Below the pieces are notes generated by a model that searched no databases, was not told the origin of the DNA, and worked only from the letters and a program-made list of their open reading frames with translations. 64,000 nt of DNA. It comes from Halovenus carboxidivorans. GTDB lineage: Archaea > Halobacteriota > Halobacteria > Halobacteriales > Haloarculaceae. The position numbers and the translations under genes are program-made. Positions 6,669 through 33,419 of this stretch are shown here, piece after piece. Positions within the stretch are counted from its first letter, which is position 1; every line of letters starts with the position of its first letter. The stretch is from positions 40,138 through 104,137 of the forward strand of contig NZ_WUUT01000004.1 in NCBI RefSeq assembly GCF_009831575.1, written 5' to 3'.

Positions 6669-8846
6669 ATGTGGGATTCACAGCGGTCGACGCAGTCGCG
6701 TCGCGCTCACAGGCGAAGTGTATCGTTAACAGTTGCGCTCGCGTTGGCGGCCCTGGTCCTGCTCGCTACGGTTCCGGGAGCGGCCGCGGGCACAGCAGTG
6801 ACCGGCCCACAGGGCGGGACGTTCGCGGAGGTCGACGACTCCGTCGAACCGACCGACGGCACCAACGTGACGATCATCCAGTACAACGATATTCAGACGG
6901 CGATGTCGGACAACGAGTCAGTCGGGCGGCTGGTCGGTGCGATCAACGACCGCCGGGCGGCGAGTGACGGCCCCGCGTTCGTCGTGGGCGGGGGCGACGA
7001 GGTCAGCCCCAGTTCGCTCTCGGCGGTCTCGGAGTGGCGCGTCCCCGTCGAGGTGCTGAACGTGATGGACCCCGATGCGGAGGTCATCGGCAACCACGAC
7101 CTCGACTACGGCTTCGAGGCCGTCTCGAACTTCAGCGAGCAGTCCGAGTTCCCGTGGCTGCTCGCGAACGTCCGGGCCGAGGACGGCGGTAACGTGCCCG
7201 GCACCCAGAACTACACGACGGTCGAACGCGGCGGCGTCAAGATCGGTATCCTCGGGCTCGTCGACGACGCCATCAAGGGCAAGACGGCGGTCGACTTCGA
7301 GGAGAACGGTTACGAGGTCACCGACTGGTCGAAAGCCGGCCGGCAGGTCGCGACCACGCTCCGCGAGGAGGAAAACGTCGATGTCGTCGTTGCACTCACC
7401 CACACGGGCGTCCCCGAATCCAAGGAGATTGCGAACAACACGGAGAACATCGACGTGATCGTCACCGGTGACGACGAGATTCTCTACGAGCCACAGGTCA
7501 CCTCCGGGACGGTCATCGTCGAAGCCGGCGGCGTCGCCTCGCATATCGGTGAGGTCAACCTCAGCGTCACCGAGGGCGGAGTCGGTTTCAACAGCGGCCG
7601 CCTCTACAGCCTCGAATCCGGGCAGTGGTCGACGAACGAAACCGCCGACAGTATCGTCCAGGAGGGCCGATCGGAGGATCTCTCGCAGGTCGCCGGCGAG
7701 ACGACCGAACCGCTCGACTCGCGGTTCAGCTCCAACTACGCCGACGACACCGGATGGGGACGGATCATCGGCGACGCGTTCCTCGCGGAGACCGGCGCCG
7801 ACGTGGCCATGACTAACGCCGGCGGGATTCGCGGAGATTTCGTCATCGACGAAGGCGAGATCACGTACGACGACGTGTACACGTCGCTGCCGTTCGGAAA
7901 CACGCTCGTGACCAAGGAGATGACTGGTCGCCAGATCGTCGAGTATCTCTCGATGACGGCGACCCCGCCGGACGCGAACTTCGGCGCGCAGGCGGAACTG
8001 CAGGTCAGCGGTATCACCTACGAACTCGTTGACCGACCGAACGCCGAGCAGCGGGCCACCGACGTGTACATCCAAGGTGAGCCGATCGAGATGGACGAGA
8101 CCTACGAGGTGACGGTCAACTCTTATATGGCCGGCGGGGAGTATCTCTCCCAGTTCGAGACGGTCGACAGGACGCTCAAACTGTACGGTACGGCGACCGT
8201 CGAGTACATCGAACAGCAGGGGACGGTGACGCCGCCGGCGGAGGACCGGATCCGCAGAGCGACCCGATCAGTCGGCGCGGGTGAAATCTCGCTGGGCAAC
8301 GAGACCGCGACCCTCGAATACGAGGTCCCCGACGCGGTCGAGTCGATTAACGACTCGTCGTTCGTGCTCATGAACGAAACGTCCGCACGGTTGGGGGTCG
8401 ACCAGGCGGAACTCTCCGGCAACACCCTGACCCTCACCGTCGATCGGTCGGCGCTCGTCTCGCTCTCGCAGGCGAGTGATACCGTCCAGTTCTACGGGAC
8501 GTACGACGACTCCGAGGTCGACAGTGTCCGCAACGGCTACGAGCAGTCCCGGCTCAACGGACAGGCGATGGTCTCCGAGGCGACACTGCTCGAAGCCGAA
8601 CTCTCGGCGGCCAGAAACGAAATCGACGAACTGCGCTCGGAACTCAGCGACCGGGAAGAGGAGATTTCCGAGCTGGAATCTCAGCTCGGCACTCGCGAAC
8701 AGCGGATCAGTGAACTCGAATCCCAGCTCGAATCCGCAAACAGTAGCTCCGAGGACAGCTCCGACGGGAGCGGTCCCGGATTCACGAGCGTCGTCGCCGC
8801 CGTCGCCCTCGTCGCGTTCGCGTTCGTTGCCCGCCGTCGGGCGTAA
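6669..8846 (+). CDS. Secreted 5'-nucleotidase/metallophosphatase-like protein with PGF-CTERM anchor
   Basis: The 725-residue protein begins with a basic signal peptide and a hydrophobic core ending near AAAG. A metallophosphoesterase domain follows (GNHDLDYG, LTHTG), then a 5'-nucleotidase C-terminal domain (MTNAGGIRGD). About 75 residues of heptad coiled coil (ELRSELSDREEEISELESQL region) precede a Ser/Asp stretch and a C-terminal GPGFTSVVAAV helix with RRR, which matches the PGF-CTERM signal processed by archaeosortase. Two classical metal-ligand motifs are altered: DxH reads NDIQ, and the late GHxH position reads GDDE. Enzyme activity is therefore uncertain. The ATG at 6669 was chosen because the signal peptide starts there. 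Confidence 0.82.
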   Translation: MWDSQRSTQSRRAHRRSVSLTVALALAALVLLATVPGAAAGTAVTGPQGGTFAEVDDSVEPTDGTNVTIIQYNDIQTAMSDNESVGRLVGAINDRRAASDGPAFVVGGGDEVSPSSLSAVSEWRVPVEVLNVMDPDAEVIGNHDLDYGFEAVSNFSEQSEFPWLLANVRAEDGGNVPGTQNYTTVERGGVKIGILGLVDDAIKGKTAVDFEENGYEVTDWSKAGRQVATTLREEENVDVVVALTHTGVPESKEIANNTENIDVIVTGDDEILYEPQVTSGTVIVEAGGVASHIGEVNLSVTEGGVGFNSGRLYSLESGQWSTNETADSIVQEGRSEDLSQVAGETTEPLDSRFSSNYADDTGWGRIIGDAFLAETGADVAMTNAGGIRGDFVIDEGEITYDDVYTSLPFGNTLVTKEMTGRQIVEYLSMTATPPDANFGAQAELQVSGITYELVDRPNAEQRATDVYIQGEPIEMDETYEVTVNSYMAGGEYLSQFETVDRTLKLYGTATVEYIEQQGTVTPPAEDRIRRATRSVGAGEISLGNETATLEYEVPDAVESINDSSFVLMNETSARLGVDQAELSGNTLTLTVDRSALVSLSQASDTVQFYGTYDDSEVDSVRNGYEQSRLNGQAMVSEATLLEAELSAARNEIDELRSELSDREEEISELESQLGTREQRISELESQLESANSSSEDSSDGSGPGFTSVVAAVALVAFAFVARRRA

Positions 8847-8857
8847 AACACGGTACC

Positions 8858-8881
8858 GCACTCGCAGTGCCGCTTCTTTTT
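8858..8881 (+). terminator. Intrinsic-like terminator after the phosphatase gene
   Basis: A perfect five-base stem (GCACT-CGC-AGTGC) is followed three bases later by TTCTTTTT, just past the stop at 8846. The T-rich run continues into TATA, so the same bases may also serve as the TATA box for the prenyl synthase gene at 8956. Confidence 0.45.
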
Positions 8882-8955
8882 ATACCGTTTCACCGACGTT
8901 CGCGGTTCGATCCGGTTCGTCACGTACTTGCGACTCAAGTCCCTACTGTGCAGTA

Positions 8956-9798
8956 ATGGAGTATCTGGATCGACGGCGGGACCGCATCGAGCGACGGCTC
9001 GAAGCGGTACTCGCGGAGACCGAGCCGGACGAACTCACCGAGGAGATGCGCCACGTCACCCTCTCTGGTGGGAAACGCGTCCGGCCGACGGTCACTGTCC
9101 TCGTCTGCGATGCGCTCGACGGCGACACTGCGGAAGCGCTCGATTACGCTGTCGGAATCGAACTCGTGCACAACGCCTCGCTCGTGATCGATGACATCAT
9201 CGACGAATCCGAACTGCGCCGGGGAACGCCCGCCGCGTGGACGGCCTTCGGCTACGGCCCCGCCATCACCGCCTCGGACGGACTGATCGGCGAGGCCTTC
9301 GCGCTGTTCTCGGAGAACGAGCGGGCGATGCAGGCCGTCGCGGAGTCGATGGTCGAACTCGGGGAAGGCGAGGCGATGGAACTGGTCAGCGAACCGGTCA
9401 CCGAACAGGAGTACATGGAGTTGGCACGTCGCAAGACCGGTGCGCTCTTTCGCGCGGCGGCCGAACTCGGCGCGATTGCCGCCGATGCCGACCCCTTCAC
9501 CGTCGAGGCGTTCGGCCAGTACGCCGAACGCGTCGGTGTCGCCTTCCAGATGCGCGACGACGTGCTGGACGCGACGGCCGACGCCGAACAACTCGGCAAG
9601 CCGACCGGAACAGACGCGGAGATGGAGCGGCCGTCGCTGGTCGAGGTGACTGATCTGACCCCCGAAGAGGCTACGCAACGAGCGCGCGAGCAATCGAGCA
9701 AGGCTCTGGACTCGCTGGAGGCGGCCGACGTCGCGGACAGCGAGGCCAAGCAGTTCCTGCGGGAGTTCGCCGAGTTCGTCGTCGAGCGCGAAAAATAA
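8956..9798 (+). CDS. idsA: Isoprenyl diphosphate synthase (GGPP/FPP synthase family)
   Basis: The 280-residue enzyme would condense IPP with allylic diphosphates to make the C15-C25 chains used for archaeal lipids and carotenoids. It has GGKRVRP near residue 38, a first aspartate-rich motif DDIIDESELRRG, and a second one in QMRDDVLD. Chain length cannot be read safely from the residues I see. The protein starts MEYLDRRRDRIERRL at the ATG at 8956; the open frame upstream is only an overlap with the previous gene. The NUDIX-eIF2B gene follows after 12 bases, suggesting one operon. Confidence 0.88.
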   Translation: MEYLDRRRDRIERRLEAVLAETEPDELTEEMRHVTLSGGKRVRPTVTVLVCDALDGDTAEALDYAVGIELVHNASLVIDDIIDESELRRGTPAAWTAFGYGPAITASDGLIGEAFALFSENERAMQAVAESMVELGEGEAMELVSEPVTEQEYMELARRKTGALFRAAAELGAIAADADPFTVEAFGQYAERVGVAFQMRDDVLDATADAEQLGKPTGTDAEMERPSLVEVTDLTPEEATQRAREQSSKALDSLEAADVADSEAKQFLREFAEFVVEREK

Positions 9799-16182: not shown

Positions 16183-17061
16183 TCAGCGTCCGGGGACGAG
16201 TTGCCCGACGGGGAAGTCGAACCGATCCAGCCGGTACAGCGCCGCGCCGAAACACGCGGCGATCACCACGGGCACCCACGCGCCGTAGAAGGCGCTGATA
16301 GATCCCCACAAGAGCACGAAACTCACCATGTCGTCGAGCACGTACTCGCAGTCACCGATCCGCTCGATGAGTTCCGTTCGGCCGAAGGCCAGATCGATCA
16401 GCGCGGTTGCGACGACCGAACTCAGCACCCACCCGGCGTAGTTGAGCGCCGGGACGCCGTAGTAGGCCCCGGCTTCGTACTCCCAGAAGCCGAGCGCCAC
16501 GGCGCCGGGGTCGAGGACGAGATCGATTGCGACGACCATCGCGGCGACGACGGGGAGACGGACGGCCGCCGAGCGCGCTCGCTCGCCGAACAGCAGCACA
16601 CAGAGCAGGTAGCTGTTCAGTACCAGCGGGATGAAAAACAGCGGCAGCGCCCACGGGATCGTCCCGAACAGCATCGGGCCGAGCGAGACCTCGTAGCTGA
16701 ACTCGCCGTAGGGCAACCCGGTCGTCGCACCGAGGTACTCGATCCCGTAGGTGTACGCGACGAGCAGTCCCAGCGCGATTCCGGCCCGCCGGTCGACCAG
16801 CGGCGCGAGCCCGCCGATCAGCGGCAGTCGCATCACCGCGACGCCACAGAGGACCAGCCAGGGGTTGAACGCGAGCGGGTCGGGGAGCAGTCCCTCTGCG
16901 CTCGCCAGGAGCATCACCGCGCCGACGACGGGGAAGACGACGGCAATCGTCACCCGGTTGTCCCCGATCAGCCTGTCGAGGCTGTGCTCGAAGGCGCGCC
17001 GATCCGAGAGCGCGCGCCGGAGAACTTCTCGGGTCGTCGACTCGCCTTCCGGCTCAGGCAT
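16183..17061 (-). CDS. cruF: Bisanhydrobacterioruberin hydratase (CruF, DUF422)
   Basis: The 292-residue membrane protein has about seven hydrophobic helices and the family segments IEYLGATTGLPYGEFSY and DLVLDPGAVALGFWEY. In Haloarcula japonica the same gene hydrates bisanhydrobacterioruberin to bacterioruberin, the last step of the C50 red pigment. It overlaps the end of lyeJ by eight bases. The conserved order crtD-lyeJ-cruF strongly supports the call. Confidence 0.92.
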   Translation of the reverse strand: MPEPEGESTTREVLRRALSDRRAFEHSLDRLIGDNRVTIAVVFPVVGAVMLLASAEGLLPDPLAFNPWLVLCGVAVMRLPLIGGLAPLVDRRAGIALGLLVAYTYGIEYLGATTGLPYGEFSYEVSLGPMLFGTIPWALPLFFIPLVLNSYLLCVLLFGERARSAAVRLPVVAAMVVAIDLVLDPGAVALGFWEYEAGAYYGVPALNYAGWVLSSVVATALIDLAFGRTELIERIGDCEYVLDDMVSFVLLWGSISAFYGAWVPVVIAACFGAALYRLDRFDFPVGQLVPGR

Positions 17062-17938
17062 AGGTGAGCCTCCAGACTGCGGCCATCGTCAGCAGTGCAC
17101 CGGCGACCGTGTTGAGCACCGGGAACCACCAGTACGCCCGGTCGATGTCGACGGAGGCGAGGACGATTCCGACGACGAAGAGCGGATAGATAGCCAGTAC
17201 CGCCGCGAAGAAGGGGTGGACGACGCCCATCGCGCCCGCCGCCGCGAGCCAGCATCCGGCGCAGTACGCCAGCGTCCGGTCCCGACCCAGTACCGTCGCC
17301 GTGGTCTGGATTCCGGCCGCCCGGTCCGGTTCGATGTCCGGAATCGCCGAGAAGGTGTGCATCCCCATCGTCCAGAGCCACCCGCCGACGATCACGAGCG
17401 TCGGGGGGAGTTCGCCCGCCAGCGCCGCGTACGCGACCAGTCCCGGCATGATGTACAGCCCGTTCGAGATCGAATCGAGAAGCGGTGTCGTCTTGAACCG
17501 GACCGGCGGTGCGCTGTAGGTCGTCCCGAGGAGCAGAAAGCCTGCGAGAGCCGCGACCCCGACCGTCGGCAGCGCGGGCACGAAGACGACGGCGGCAAGT
17601 GCGGAGCAGACGACGATGACCGTCACCGACCTGCTGCCGCGGTACTGGACCTCTCGGCCCTCGTCTGACTTCTTGGGGTTCACCTCGTCGATGTCGGCGT
17701 CGAACAGATCGTTGATCCCGTACAGGAAGACGTTCGCGGGGACGAGGAAGTACGCGAACAGCGCGACCGTCAGCGGCGTGAAGTACTCCGCCGTCGAGGA
17801 GGCGCCGTAGGCGACACCGACGACCACCGGGCCGGCGAGATAGAACCAAAAGCGGGGCCGGGAGAGCCAGAAGAGATACCCCACCAGCGTCTGCTCGGAG
17901 GGCGCGAGCGCGCTCAGACGGTCGCTGACGTCTATCAC
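17054..17938 (-). CDS. lyeJ: Lycopene elongase/1,2-hydratase (UbiA family)
   Basis: The 294-residue membrane prenyltransferase adds C5 units and water to lycopene on the way to bacterioruberin. It has both UbiA aspartate motifs: NDLFDADIDEVNPKK near residue 76 and AIPDIEPDRAAGIQT near 200. About eight helices are visible. It lies between crtD (39-base gap) and cruF (overlap). Its start MIDVSDRLSALAPSEQTL fits close relatives. Confidence 0.92.
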   Translation of the reverse strand: MIDVSDRLSALAPSEQTLVGYLFWLSRPRFWFYLAGPVVVGVAYGASSTAEYFTPLTVALFAYFLVPANVFLYGINDLFDADIDEVNPKKSDEGREVQYRGSRSVTVIVVCSALAAVVFVPALPTVGVAALAGFLLLGTTYSAPPVRFKTTPLLDSISNGLYIMPGLVAYAALAGELPPTLVIVGGWLWTMGMHTFSAIPDIEPDRAAGIQTTATVLGRDRTLAYCAGCWLAAAGAMGVVHPFFAAVLAIYPLFVVGIVLASVDIDRAYWWFPVLNTVAGALLTMAAVWRLTYA

Positions 17939-28191: not shown

Positions 28192-28397
28192 TCGTAGCGG
28201 GCGGCTCACCGGCACCGTTTTCTCCCCGAGGAACGCGCCACTGCGGCCCGTCGAACGAACTGTGAACGCACGTCTGGGGACGTTCCGCCTCGGTTCCCGT
28301 GGGCGGGTGTCCCGACAGTTCTGTTCGTACCGTTGCGGAATCCTTTTGCCCGTGCTTGTGCATTCAATGGCCAACGGATGGTCGGGAGCACGCAGCT

Positions 28398-29948
28398 ATG
28401 ACGATGGAAGACCGAATCAACGAACTACGGGAGAAACGTGAACAGGCGCGCAAAGGCGGGGGCGAGGAGCGCATCGAGTCCCAGCACGAGAAGGGGAAAC
28501 TCACCGCCCGCGAACGCATCGATTACTTCCTCGACGACGGGACGTTCACCGAGTTCGATCAGTTTCGGACGCATCGGACTCACACCTTCGACATGCAGGA
28601 GAAGACGTACCCCGGTGACGGGGTGGTGACGGGCTACGGCGAGGTCAACGGCCGCACTGTCTTCGTCTTCGCGCACGACTTCACCGTTCTCGGTGGCTCG
28701 CTGGGCGAGGTCTTCGCCGAGAAGGTCACCAAGGTGATGGACAAGGCGATGGAGACGGGCGCGCCGGTGATCGGACTGAACGACTCCGCCGGCGCCCGAA
28801 TCCAGGAAGGAATCGACTCGCTGGCCGGTTACGCGGAGATTTTCCACCGCAACCAGCAGGCCAGCGGCTACATCCCCCAGATCTCGGCGATCATGGGTCC
28901 CTGCGCGGGCGGGGCCGTCTACTCGCCGGCGATCACGGACTTCATCATGATGGTCGAGGACACCAGTCACATGTTCATCACCGGGCCGGACGTGATCGAG
29001 ACGGTCACGGGCGAGCAGGTCGGGTTCGACGAACTCGGGGGCGCGAGCACACACGCCTCCGAATCCGGCGTCGCGCAGTTCACCGCCGCCGACGAGAAGG
29101 AAGCGCTCGACGATATCCGGTATCTCCTCTCCTATCTCCCACAGAACAACCTCGAAGATCCGCCGCGGCTCGATCCGTGGGACGACCCCGACCGCGAGGA
29201 CGAACAACTCCGCGAGATCGTCCCAGACGAACCCCGCAAGCCATACGACATCGTCGACGTGATCGACAGCGTCGTCGACGAGGGCTCGTTCTTCGAGGTC
29301 GCCGATTCCTTCGCCCGCAACATCGTCACCGGCTTCGGTCGACTCGACGGCCACTCTATCGGCATCGTCGCCAACCAGCCCCGGGTCAACGCCGGCACGC
29401 TCGATATCAAATCCTCGCGGAAGGCCGCCCGGTTCGTGCGATTCTGTGACGCCTTCAACATCCCGATCCTGACGTTCGTCGACGTGCCCGGGTTCATGCC
29501 CGGGACCGATCAGGAACACAACGGGATCATCGTCCACGGCGCGAAACTGCTCTACGCGTTCTCCGAGGCCACGGTGCCGCTGATGACGGTCATCACGCGG
29601 AAGGCCTACGGCGGCGCCTACGACGTGATGGCCTCGAAGCACATCGGCGCGGATGTCAACTACGCCTGGCCGACCGCCGAGGTGGCGGTGATGGGGCCGA
29701 AGGGCGCGGTCAACGTGCTGTACAGCGACGAACTCGAAGCGGCCGACGACCCGGAGGCTCGCCGCAAGGAACTCATCGACGAGTACCGCGATCAGTTCGC
29801 AAACCCCTACACCGCCGCGGACCGCGGGTTCGTCGACGCGGTGATCGAACCGGAGAAAACTCGGCCACAACTCATCAGCGACCTGGAGATGCTCCGCTCG
29901 AAGCGAAAGTCACAACCGGAGAAGAAACACGGGAACATCCCACTTTGA
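28398..29948 (+). CDS. pccB: Acyl-CoA (propionyl-CoA) carboxylase, carboxyltransferase subunit
   Basis: The 516-residue subunit moves CO2 from carboxybiotin to acyl-CoA. It has the two crotonase-like halves of the family: the first with [12 protein letters not shown] and [12 protein letters not shown], the second with [13 protein letters not shown] and [15 protein letters not shown]. Propionyl-CoA is the likely main substrate, as in Haloferax mediterranei, but acetyl-CoA use is possible. The start ATG is at 28398; the open frame upstream is Cys-rich and unsupported. It begins the pccB-pccX-pccA operon. Confidence 0.92.
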
Positions 29949-29964
29949 TATGGGGGGGACGAGT

Positions 29965-30255
29965 ATGGACGAGGAGATGCAGTCGGTACAGATCGACGGT
30001 CACCGGGTAACGATCCCGCCGGACGCGTCCGCCTCGGAAGCGGCGGCCATCTCGGCGGCTATGGGGGCACATATCAGGGATCAGCAGGCGGCCGCGGCGG
30101 CGGCCGACGAGGAGGAACCCGACGACGAGGACTGGGAGGGCGAGCGGTTCGCCTTCGCCGGTCGTCTGGAGGGAGTCGGGATCGGCACCCGCCGCGTCCC
30201 GCGAGAGGTACCGACCGACAGGTGGACAGCAGCAGGACGAGCAGACAGATACTAA
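29965..30255 (+). CDS. pccX: Small third subunit of acyl-CoA carboxylase (PccX-like)
   Basis: The 96-residue acidic protein sits between the two catalytic subunit genes, 16 bases after pccB and three before pccA. It starts [20 protein letters not shown], continues with an Ala-rich helix and ends [11 protein letters not shown]. The WxxxGR end recalls small acyl-CoA carboxylase epsilon subunits of actinobacteria. Haloferax mediterranei has a like-placed pccX. Its job is probably assembly of the complex. The run of seven G just upstream (29952-29958) acts as ribosome-binding site for the ATG at 29965. Confidence 0.8.
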
Positions 30256-30258
30256 CAC

Positions 30259-32124
30259 ATGACAGGAGACACATTCGACAAGGTACTGGTCGCGAACCGC
30301 GGTGAGATCGCGGTTCGGGTCATGCGCGCGTGTGAGGATCTCGGAATCGATACCGTCGCGGTCTACAGCGAAGCGGACAAACACGCCGGACACGTCCGGT
30401 ACGCCGACGAGGCTTACAACGTCGGCCCGGCGCGGGCGGCGGACTCGTATCTCGACCACGAGGCGATCATCGACGCCGCCAAACGCTCCGGCGCGGACGC
30501 GATCCATCCCGGCTACGGATTTCTCGCGGAGAATGCGGTCTTCGCCGGCAAGGTCGAGGAGACCGAGGGGGTGACGTGGATCGGTCCGTCCAGCGAAGGA
30601 ATGGAGCAACTCGGCGAGAAGACGAAGGCTCGGACGATCATGGACGAAGCGGGCGTTCCCATCGTCCCCGGGACGACCGACCCGGTGACCGAACCGGAGG
30701 AAGTGACGGAGTTCGGCGAGGAGTACGGCTTCCCCGTGGCGATCAAGGCGGAGGGGGGCGGCGGCGGCCGGGGGATGACCGTCGTCCGCGGCGAAGAGGA
30801 GGTCGAGGACAAACTCGATACCGCCAAACGCGAGGGCGAGGCGTACTTCGACAACGACTCGGTCTACCTGGAGCGCTACCTCGAAAACCCGCGCCACGTC
30901 GAGGTGCAGATCATCGCCGACCACCACGGAAACGTCCGTCACCTCGGTGAGCGGGACTGCTCGCTGCAGCGCCGTCACCAGAAGGTCATCGAGGAGGGGC
31001 CCTCGCCCGCGCTGTCGGACGAACTCCGCGAGGAGATCGGTGAAGCCGCCCGCCAGGGCGTCCAGGAGGCCGATTACGTCAACGCGGGCACCGTCGAGTT
31101 CCTCGTCGAGGAGGATCCCGACCGCGACCCGGACGACCTGCTCGGCCCGGAGACGGACTTCTACTTCCTCGAAGTCAACACCCGGATCCAGGTCGAACAC
31201 TGCGTCACCGAGGAGATCACGGGCATCGACATCGTCAAGTGGCAACTGCGGGTCGCACAGGGCGAGGAACTGTCCTTCTCGCAGGACGACGTGGACATCG
31301 AGGGCCACGCCTTCGAGTTCCGAATCAACGCCGAGAACGCCGCGAACGAGTTCGCGCCCGCCACCGGCGGCACGCTGGAGACGTACGACCCACCGGGCGG
31401 CGTCGGCGTCCGGATGGACGACGCGCTCCGGCAGGGCGACGACCTCGTGACGGATTACGACTCGATGGTCGCGAAACTGATCGTCAGCGGCGAGGACCGA
31501 ACCGAGTCCATCGCCCGCGCCAAACGCGCCCTCGCGGAGTACGAGATCGAGGGCATCGTCACGATCATCCCGTTCCATCGGATGATGCTCGACGACCAGC
31601 GTTTCGTCGACGGCCTCCACACGACGAAGTACCTCGACGAACACATGGACCACTCCCGCATCGAGGAGGCCCAAAAGCGGTGGGGAACGGAGACCTCGAC
31701 CGCCGAGAGCGACGAGGAGGTCACTCAGCGGGAGTTCACCGTCGAAGTCGACGGCAAGCGCTTCGAGGTCGAACTCGAAGAACGGGGCGCACCGCCGATT
31801 CAGGCCCCGAGCGGCGGCGACAGCGGTGGCGGGGGCGGCGGCCAGTCCCAGCGACCCGACCGCGCCGGACCCGGCGACGACGACTCCGGATCCACCAGCG
31901 TCAGCGCCGACGGCGAGACCGTCTCCGCGGAGATGCAGGGAACGATCCTCGAAATCAACGTCAGCGAGGGCGACGAAGTCGCCGCCGGTGACGTGCTCTG
32001 CGTCCTCGAAGCGATGAAGATGGAAAACGACATCGTCGCAGAATACGGCGGAACCGTCGCCGAGGTCGCGATCAGCGAGGGCGACAGCGTCGACATGGGC
32101 GATCCGATGTTCGTCATCGAATAG
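30259..32124 (+). CDS. pccA: Acyl-CoA carboxylase, biotin carboxylase plus biotin carrier subunit
   Basis: The 621-residue protein joins a biotin carboxylase (1-about 450; [20 protein letters not shown], glycine loop [10 protein letters not shown], and ATP-grasp [10 protein letters not shown]) to a carrier domain at the end. A Gly/Ser-rich linker lies at about 513-535. The biotin lysine is Lys587 in VLEAMKMEN. It charges biotin with bicarbonate and ATP, and PccB then carboxylates the acyl-CoA. Route: propionyl-CoA to methylmalonyl-CoA. It is third in its operon. Confidence 0.95.
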
Positions 32125-32210
32125 CGCCCCGCGCCGAAATCTGTTCCTACCGCGTCAGTAGCCGTCGCTTTCGCCGATACTGTTAATTCATCCGAGGACT
32201 ATGAGTGTGC

Positions 32211-33419
32211 ATGGCATTCGCACGGCACGAGTCCGGACTCCGGGCGGAGATTGCGGCCCTTCTCTCCCAGGTCCACCCGGTCTTTATGATTCCGCCCCTG
32301 GCGGCCTCGTGGTTCGGTGCGGTCGTCGCCGGCGGGGTCACGATGTCCCACGGAGCAATCCACATGGCCGCGATGTTCTTCGCGGTCTACACCGCCCACG
32401 TCAAGGACGGCTACATCGACTTCTACGAACGGGGCGAGGACGAGGATCACCCGCTGACGAGGTGGGGCTGTCGGACGGCGCTGCTCGCCGCTGGCGTCGG
32501 ATTCGCTGCCTGTACGCTCGCGCTGGGTGTTCTCGTCGGTTCCGGTGCGGCGCTGATCACGCTGCCGACGTGGTTCATCGGCTATCTCCACGCCCCGCAA
32601 CTGGACACCAACCCGGTGACGACGACGCTGGGGTATCCGACCGGCATCGCACTGGCGATACTCGGCGGTTTCGTCGTCCAGACCGGCACACTGACCCCCG
32701 CCATCCTCGGCTTCGCGCTGGTCTTTCTGACGACGCTGGCGGGAGTGAAGATCATCGACGACGAACAGGATTACGAGTACGACCGCTCTATCGACAAGCG
32801 AACGGTCTCGGTGCTGGTCGGGCGGTCGCCGGGCCGAACCATCGCCGTCTCGTTGCTCGCGCTCGGACTCGTCGGGGTGCTCTGGGGGACGATCAGCGGC
32901 CTGTTCCCTCCTTCGTCGCCCGTCGCTGCTCTCGCCTTCGGCTCCGTCGCGCTCGTCGCCCGCCGCGCTCGGCCGACGATTGCGACGATGCTTCTGATCC
33001 GCGGCGCGTACGTCTTCCTCGCGCTCCTGCTGGTCGCGGTCTGGTTCCGACCGCTCTCCGGGGCCACCCTTCCGGACATCACGGTTCTCGGTCCCTACAC
33101 CTACCTGGCGACCGAGCTCGTCTTCGGAGCAGTCGCGTTCGGGCTGCTCTATTACGCCGGTTCGCTCCGCTCGGCCGCACGGACTATCGCCGCCGTCTAT
33201 CCGATCGCGTACCTCTGGGACTGGTACACCCTGGAGGTCGGCGTCTTCGAGATCGTGATGCGCTCGGGCTACGACCTGTTCGGCATCCCGGTCGAGGAGC
33301 ACATCTTCATGATCGTCGTCCCGGCGCTGGTGCTCGGCTTTCACGAGGCGATGGGTGCTATCGCGGAGCCGTCGCCCGCCACCGAGACGACGAGCACTCG
33401 CCCCGTAGACGACGATTAG
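32211..33419 (+). CDS. UbiA-type prenyltransferase fused to a carotenoid (lycopene) cyclase half-domain
   Basis: Residues 1-about 270 form a UbiA membrane prenyltransferase with both Asp-rich motifs: VKDGYIDFYERGED near 66 and IDDEQDYEYDRSIDKRT near 183. Residues about 290-395 hold three helices with the CarR/CrtYcd cyclase pattern: a WDWYTLEVGVFE helix, then LFGIPVEEHIFM. Archaeal lycopene cyclases normally carry two such halves; here there is one. The pairing mirrors CrtEb with CrtYe/f, which make cyclic C50 carotenoids in actinobacteria. The product is not known. TATA (GTTAATTC, about 32182-32189) lies 26 bases before ATG 32211, so a leaderless start is chosen. Confidence 0.8.
   Translation: MAFARHESGLRAEIAALLSQVHPVFMIPPLAASWFGAVVAGGVTMSHGAIHMAAMFFAVYTAHVKDGYIDFYERGEDEDHPLTRWGCRTALLAAGVGFAACTLALGVLVGSGAALITLPTWFIGYLHAPQLDTNPVTTTLGYPTGIALAILGGFVVQTGTLTPAILGFALVFLTTLAGVKIIDDEQDYEYDRSIDKRTVSVLVGRSPGRTIAVSLLALGLVGVLWGTISGLFPPSSPVAALAFGSVALVARRARPTIATMLLIRGAYVFLALLLVAVWFRPLSGATLPDITVLGPYTYLATELVFGAVAFGLLYYAGSLRSAARTIAAVYPIAYLWDWYTLEVGVFEIVMRSGYDLFGIPVEEHIFMIVVPALVLGFHEAMGAIAEPSPATETTSTRPVDDD

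Follow-up and report, generated by a model that had tools for sequence, protein, structure and literature searches.

The locus and its parts

The window (the whole stretch of 64,000 nucleotides from Halovenus carboxidivorans analyzed here) contains an unbroken reading frame, coding at 32211-33416 (+) with the stop at 33417-33419, whose product of 402 amino acids combines an N-terminal UbiA-type prenyltransferase with a single C-terminal CarR/CrtYcd half. The ATG at 32211 is the start common to orthologs (M-A-x-A-R-H), and an alternative in-frame GTG start is possible at 32205. The features of this gene, and two carotenoid genes located ~14 kb from it, are as follows:

32211..33419 (+), including the stop: UbiA–CarR-half fusion gene, 402 aa
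32211..33062 (+): UbiA-fold prenyltransferase module, residues 1-284 (Pfam/NCBIfam, fold match)
32406..32453 (+): atypical acidic motif 1, D66GYID70FYERGE76DEDHP81 (conservation in orthologs, MenA-like spacing)
32757..32804 (+): acidic motif 2, D183DEQD187YEYD191RSIDKRT198 (ortholog alignment)
33063..33359 (+): single CarR/CrtYcd half, three helices, residues 285-383 (TIGR03462, structure models)
33216..33248 (+): W336-D337-WYTLEVGVF346, equivalent to the WD of the CrtY N-half (alignment with 19 CrtY proteins)
33282..33302 (+): GIP360VE362E363H364, equivalent to the PxEE of the CrtY C-half (alignment with 19 CrtY proteins)
33360..33416 (+): C-terminal tail, variable among orthologs and of low confidence (pLDDT 55-77)
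17054..17938 (-): Lye, lycopene elongase of the UbiA type (PRK12875, 445 bits)
16183..17061 (-): CruF, bisanhydrobacterioruberin hydratase (NF041333, 427 bits)

Directly upstream of the fusion gene, at 28299-32124 (+), lie biotin-dependent carboxylase genes (carboxyltransferase, small subunit, and biotin carboxylase/carrier), read from sequence.

The earlier note had described a UbiA prenyltransferase fused to one CarR half, with only one cyclase half present, in a cell with bacterioruberin genes. Domain profile searches, an AlphaFold2 model and the orthologs confirm the fusion and the solitary half, and the presence of Lye and CruF within the window bears out the rest. In a Pfam search with the single protein, PF01040 matches with E 1.1e-7 and 31.8 bits versus a gathering score of 34.2, while in the profile search of the genome the UbiA domain reaches 34.4 bits, above the cut-off. 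Likewise, TIGR03462, the profile match on which the CarR assignment was to stand or fall, gives 35.9 bits (E 8.1e-9) in the single-protein search and 40.3 bits for the CarR half in the genome search, with the cut-off at 39.4; PF18916 gives 17.8 bits, under its cut-off. The domain scores thus straddle the cut-offs, but dozens of orthologs with 53-83% identity, together with standalone copies of the modules, exclude a chance match. The AlphaFold2 model (pLDDT 89.9, pTM 0.73) comprises the UbiA fold in residues 9-284, followed by three more helices, which are predicted in both structure models and correspond to the C-terminal three-helix CarR pattern noticed previously.

The UbiA module

The fold and the two acidic motifs, of which the first is a conserved variant, place the N-terminal module in the UbiA superfamily. 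Its fold matches those of DGGGP synthase (6m31) and UBIAD1 (8djk) with Z 24.0 over 263-267 residues (rmsd 3.3-3.4), the identity to the window protein being 13-16%, and this similarity leaves the substrate unfixed. Motif 2 is canonical (D187-x3-D191, with KRT), as expected from the earlier claim of both UbiA Asp motifs; motif 1 departs from it, exhibiting D66-x3-D70-x5-E76 with the spacing of MenA instead of the canonical NxxxDxxxD, i.e. with D in place of N and no third Asp in the usual position. The motif 1 residues are invariant or nearly so across 28 orthologs, and both modules are intact and conserved in every arrangement found (fused, adjacent, or separate).

The proposal that the UbiA part is an elongase is not supported. 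At E<=1 neither the Lye profile (PRK12875) nor PRK13105 matches the window protein, only 5 of the 28 family members match the Lye profile, weakly (best 1e-3), and neither the window protein nor the family reaches the PRK12875 cut-off. Lye, a member of the same superfamily encoded in the same genome, has the canonical NxxxDxxxD. MenA (DHNA polyprenyltransferase) profiles, the best recurring NCBIfam matches, are found for 28/28 members (best 1.7e-11), PRK12884 matches 27/28, and the hhalign probability is 35.7% for MenA vs 4.6% for Lye. The family shares with MenA the D-x3-D-x5-E and DxxxD-KRT spacing, but it has N replaced by D, and all its MenA scores are far under the family cut-offs, with TIGR00751 at 18.5-20 bits vs the equivalog cut-off of 102. 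In the tree of the UbiA family it groups with MenA on long branches and with weak support (89/76), and the AU test does not reject placing it with Lye (p 0.18). We therefore favour, from profiles and motif layout, a module more MenA-like than elongase-like, with the tree leaving the kinship unsettled.

True MenA, separate from the fusion family, is present in 19/21 genomes tested and Lye in 385/391, which makes the UbiA of the pair an additional enzyme. As a discriminator between genomes the presence of Lye is uninformative, being near-universal.

Several other UbiA proteins were encountered. Among genomes of the window's genus, 13/13 lack a canonical DGGGP synthase, their best PRK12882 score being 63 bits against a cut-off of 296; five genomes from other families exceed 300 bits with this profile. 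A candidate for the second archaeol ether in the window genome is a 290-aa UbiA protein at C1:808387-809001 (+). In the same genome, C6:145974-146711 (-) encodes a CtaB-like UbiA domain in a 473-aa frame with an upstream CtaA-like part, as read from sequence, and the layout is similar in L192. Halobacteriaceae-type genomes contain a divergent UbiA paralog (~40% identical) with no adjacent CarR half (L132:8180-9055, L133:7901-8821), which adjoins an AMP-ligase-like gene and a probable regulator gene.

The CarR half

The profile match and the core residues assign the C-terminal module to the CarR/CrtYcd family. D337, G344, P360, E363 and F366 of the window protein are common to both halves of the CrtYcd-type CrtY of haloarchaea; D337, P360, E362 and E363 are invariant in UbiA-linked CarR halves, and E302, H364, H378 and E379 are invariants specific to their clade. 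In CrtY the signatures are divided between two divergent halves, with WD in the N-half and PxEE in the C-half, whereas the UbiA-linked half holds both, and in a tree of 60 halves based on few columns it forms a third group beside the CrtY N and C halves. A CrtYcd lycopene cyclase consists of two halves in one chain or in a heterodimer, and the fusion protein has one half only; a homodimer, which would supply both the WD and PxEE signatures, is a natural inference. Neither sequence search nor fold search revealed solved structural relatives of the CarR half. CruF gives a weak TIGR03462 echo (E 0.1), but hhalign does not support a distant relationship between CruF and the CarR half.

Distribution and co-occurrence of the two modules

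The UbiA + CarR-half pair is present in 315 of 391 species of the class Halobacteria, about four in five, as a single fused gene, as adjacent genes, or at two separate loci. Outside this class we found only generic UbiA matches elsewhere in the phylum (best E 5e-7). The fused form occurs in Halorubrum, Halobellus, Halobaculum, Natronomonas and some Haloferax; in the split form, UbiA (~284 aa) and the CarR half (~103 aa) are individual genes, which adjoin each other in Halegenticoccus and Halogranum, are neighbours in divergent orientation in Halosimplex, and lie at distant loci in Haloarcula-like genomes. The UbiA tree shows three or more switches between the fused and the separate state on branches with good support. 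The nearest relative of the window protein in the tree comes from a Halovenus MAG (81% identical), and the window gene clusters with fused genes of Halorubrum and Natronomonas; since these belong to other families, the grouping suggests lateral transfer.

The number of CarR domains was determined for each of the 391 genomes surveyed for the pair. An odd count occurs in 307 genomes, all of them pair-positive (307/307), which are not independent cases because related species share descent; the pair-negative genomes (76/76) have an even count of 0, 2 or 4, i.e. whole CrtY proteins. Eight pair-positive genomes are exceptions to the odd-count rule: as read from listings, five seem to carry only a distant UbiA paralog, one (G411) has an even count explicable by an extra copy, and one (G403) is fragmented, while the last (G021) has UbiA alone, without a CarR domain. 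In G021 (L134) a polyprenyl-synthase-like gene lies directly downstream on the opposite strand (7730-8560 and 8569-9429). Several genera (g21, g54, g10 and g46) mix carriers and non-carriers, and in the non-carriers both modules are missing together. The presence of one module goes hand in hand with that of the other.

The UbiA-linked half is the sole CarR domain in 125 genomes. Provided that the profile detects all CarR relatives, no heterodimer of the CrtYc/CrtYd or LbtA/LbtB type is possible there, and the CarR half must do without a second half encoded by another gene. The window genome itself has a complete two-half CrtY (C2:32341-33018), with which the half of the fusion protein could in principle pair.

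Among the loci compared, no informative functional gene neighbourhood of the pair was found. An aminotransferase gene upstream of UbiA (22 loci), the most frequent neighbour, was rejected as a functional link; as 40/40 genomes tested have this gene whether or not they carry the pair, the conserved order was probably inherited from an ancestor. A CBS-domain gene divergent from the split CarR gene (13 loci) was taken as a positional neighbour only.

Functional interpretation

The pair is a conserved, lineage-specific two-module isoprenoid enzyme with a putative activity suggested by its sequence families. We regard it as quite possible, though short of probable, that it is a self-contained enzyme that transfers a prenyl chain to an acceptor and then closes a ring in the product, yielding an undescribed cyclic isoprenoid lipid. 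The UbiA module, with Mg2+ and its two acidic motifs, would ionise a polyprenyl diphosphate and hand the chain to an acceptor, for which the MenA-like family resemblance makes a quinol-like or other lipid-soluble molecule more likely than lycopene. CrtYcd closes a ring on the psi-end of lycopene; the CarR half, paired with a second copy of itself or working against the UbiA module, may protonate a terminal isoprene double bond and close a ring in a similar manner. Prenyl transfer would thus precede proton-initiated cyclisation, and the product would be a cyclic isoprenoid lipid dispensable for bacterioruberin and retinal. The fuller version, in which the solitary CarR half is a complete cyclase and, jointly with a MenA-like prenyltransferase, acts on a lipid other than a carotenoid, so that most haloarchaea make an unseen cyclic prenyl lipid, appears to us rather unlikely. 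Two points weigh against the reading of transfer plus cyclisation as such: to our knowledge, all characterised CarR-family enzymes act on carotenoids, and we know of no cyclic quinone or meroterpenoid from haloarchaea. End-cyclised polyprenyl quinones do occur in Nocardia, namely MK-8(H4 cyclo) (PMC3621993), and by this analogy ring closure on a non-carotenoid would not be far-fetched.

The main rival to a non-carotenoid lipid is a cyclic C45/C50 carotenoid. Dietzia sp. CQ4 makes C50 carotenoids with LbtBC, whose single cyclase half is fused to an elongase and pairs with LbtA (PMC6393565). The likeness is close, a UbiA protein being joined in frame to one CarR-type cyclase half in both cases, and it was omitted from the earlier note, which had placed elongase and cyclase in one chain; the single CarR half of that picture holds, the elongase label is not supported. 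Judging from its name, LbtBC appears to have the cyclase half first, while the haloarchaeal fusion has UbiA first. With this precedent the architecture alone is not new, and the carotenoid reading is kept alive: in an archaeal counterpart the UbiA module would extend lycopene or a C45 intermediate by C5 units and the CarR half would close end rings, giving a minor cyclic C45/C50 carotenoid. Those CarR homologs whose function is known cyclise carotenoids, the near-universal Lye makes a substrate available, and the window gene is not far from lye and cruF. However, LbtC is a true lycopene elongase inside a carotenoid operon, whereas the fusion has no such operon, its UbiA part is not elongase-like in profile or motif spacing, and the cell already has a true Lye. 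Moreover, LbtBC requires LbtA, and the 125 genomes mentioned above have no second half. On balance, we consider a cyclic carotenoid unlikely.

UbiA-type terpene cyclases are known, among them fungal ones (PMC9835599). In an acceptor-free terpenoid synthase, GGPP or a longer diphosphate would be ionised by UbiA, and the CarR half would join in ring closure to release a cyclic terpene or polyprenol. Such a synthase would agree with the conservation of both acidic motifs and with the altered motif 1, but transfer plus cyclisation suits two separate modules better, and we find this reading improbable. We give slightly less weight still to a role of the CarR half other than cyclisation, as a hydratase or as a subunit that supports the prenyltransferase structurally or channels its substrate. 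Its clade-specific invariants, which suggest altered chemistry, and the persistence of the UbiA-only lineage G021 speak for such a role; against it, D337, P360, E362 and E363 are invariant, the G021 UbiA forms a long branch, as after relaxed constraint, and hhalign finds no relation to CruF.

Implications

In the open literature searched we found no published account of a UbiA–CarR-half protein. What the analysis adds to the earlier note is the existence of split and adjacent forms, the close coupling of the two modules and the 125 genomes with no partner half. Haloferax volcanii, a genetic model in which a control search gave no CarR match at E<=0.001, offers a clean host background. Haloferax larsenii and Halorubrum saccharovorum are native carriers, and lipid features of unidentified nature reportedly distinguish Hf. 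larsenii from two further Haloferax strains (PMC10704169), which is a mere lead as regards this gene. If the proposed transfer and cyclisation are true, ~80% of the sampled haloarchaeal species make a cyclic isoprenoid undescribed in the literature searched, and one CarR half suffices for cyclisation, which would reveal the role of each half of CrtYcd.
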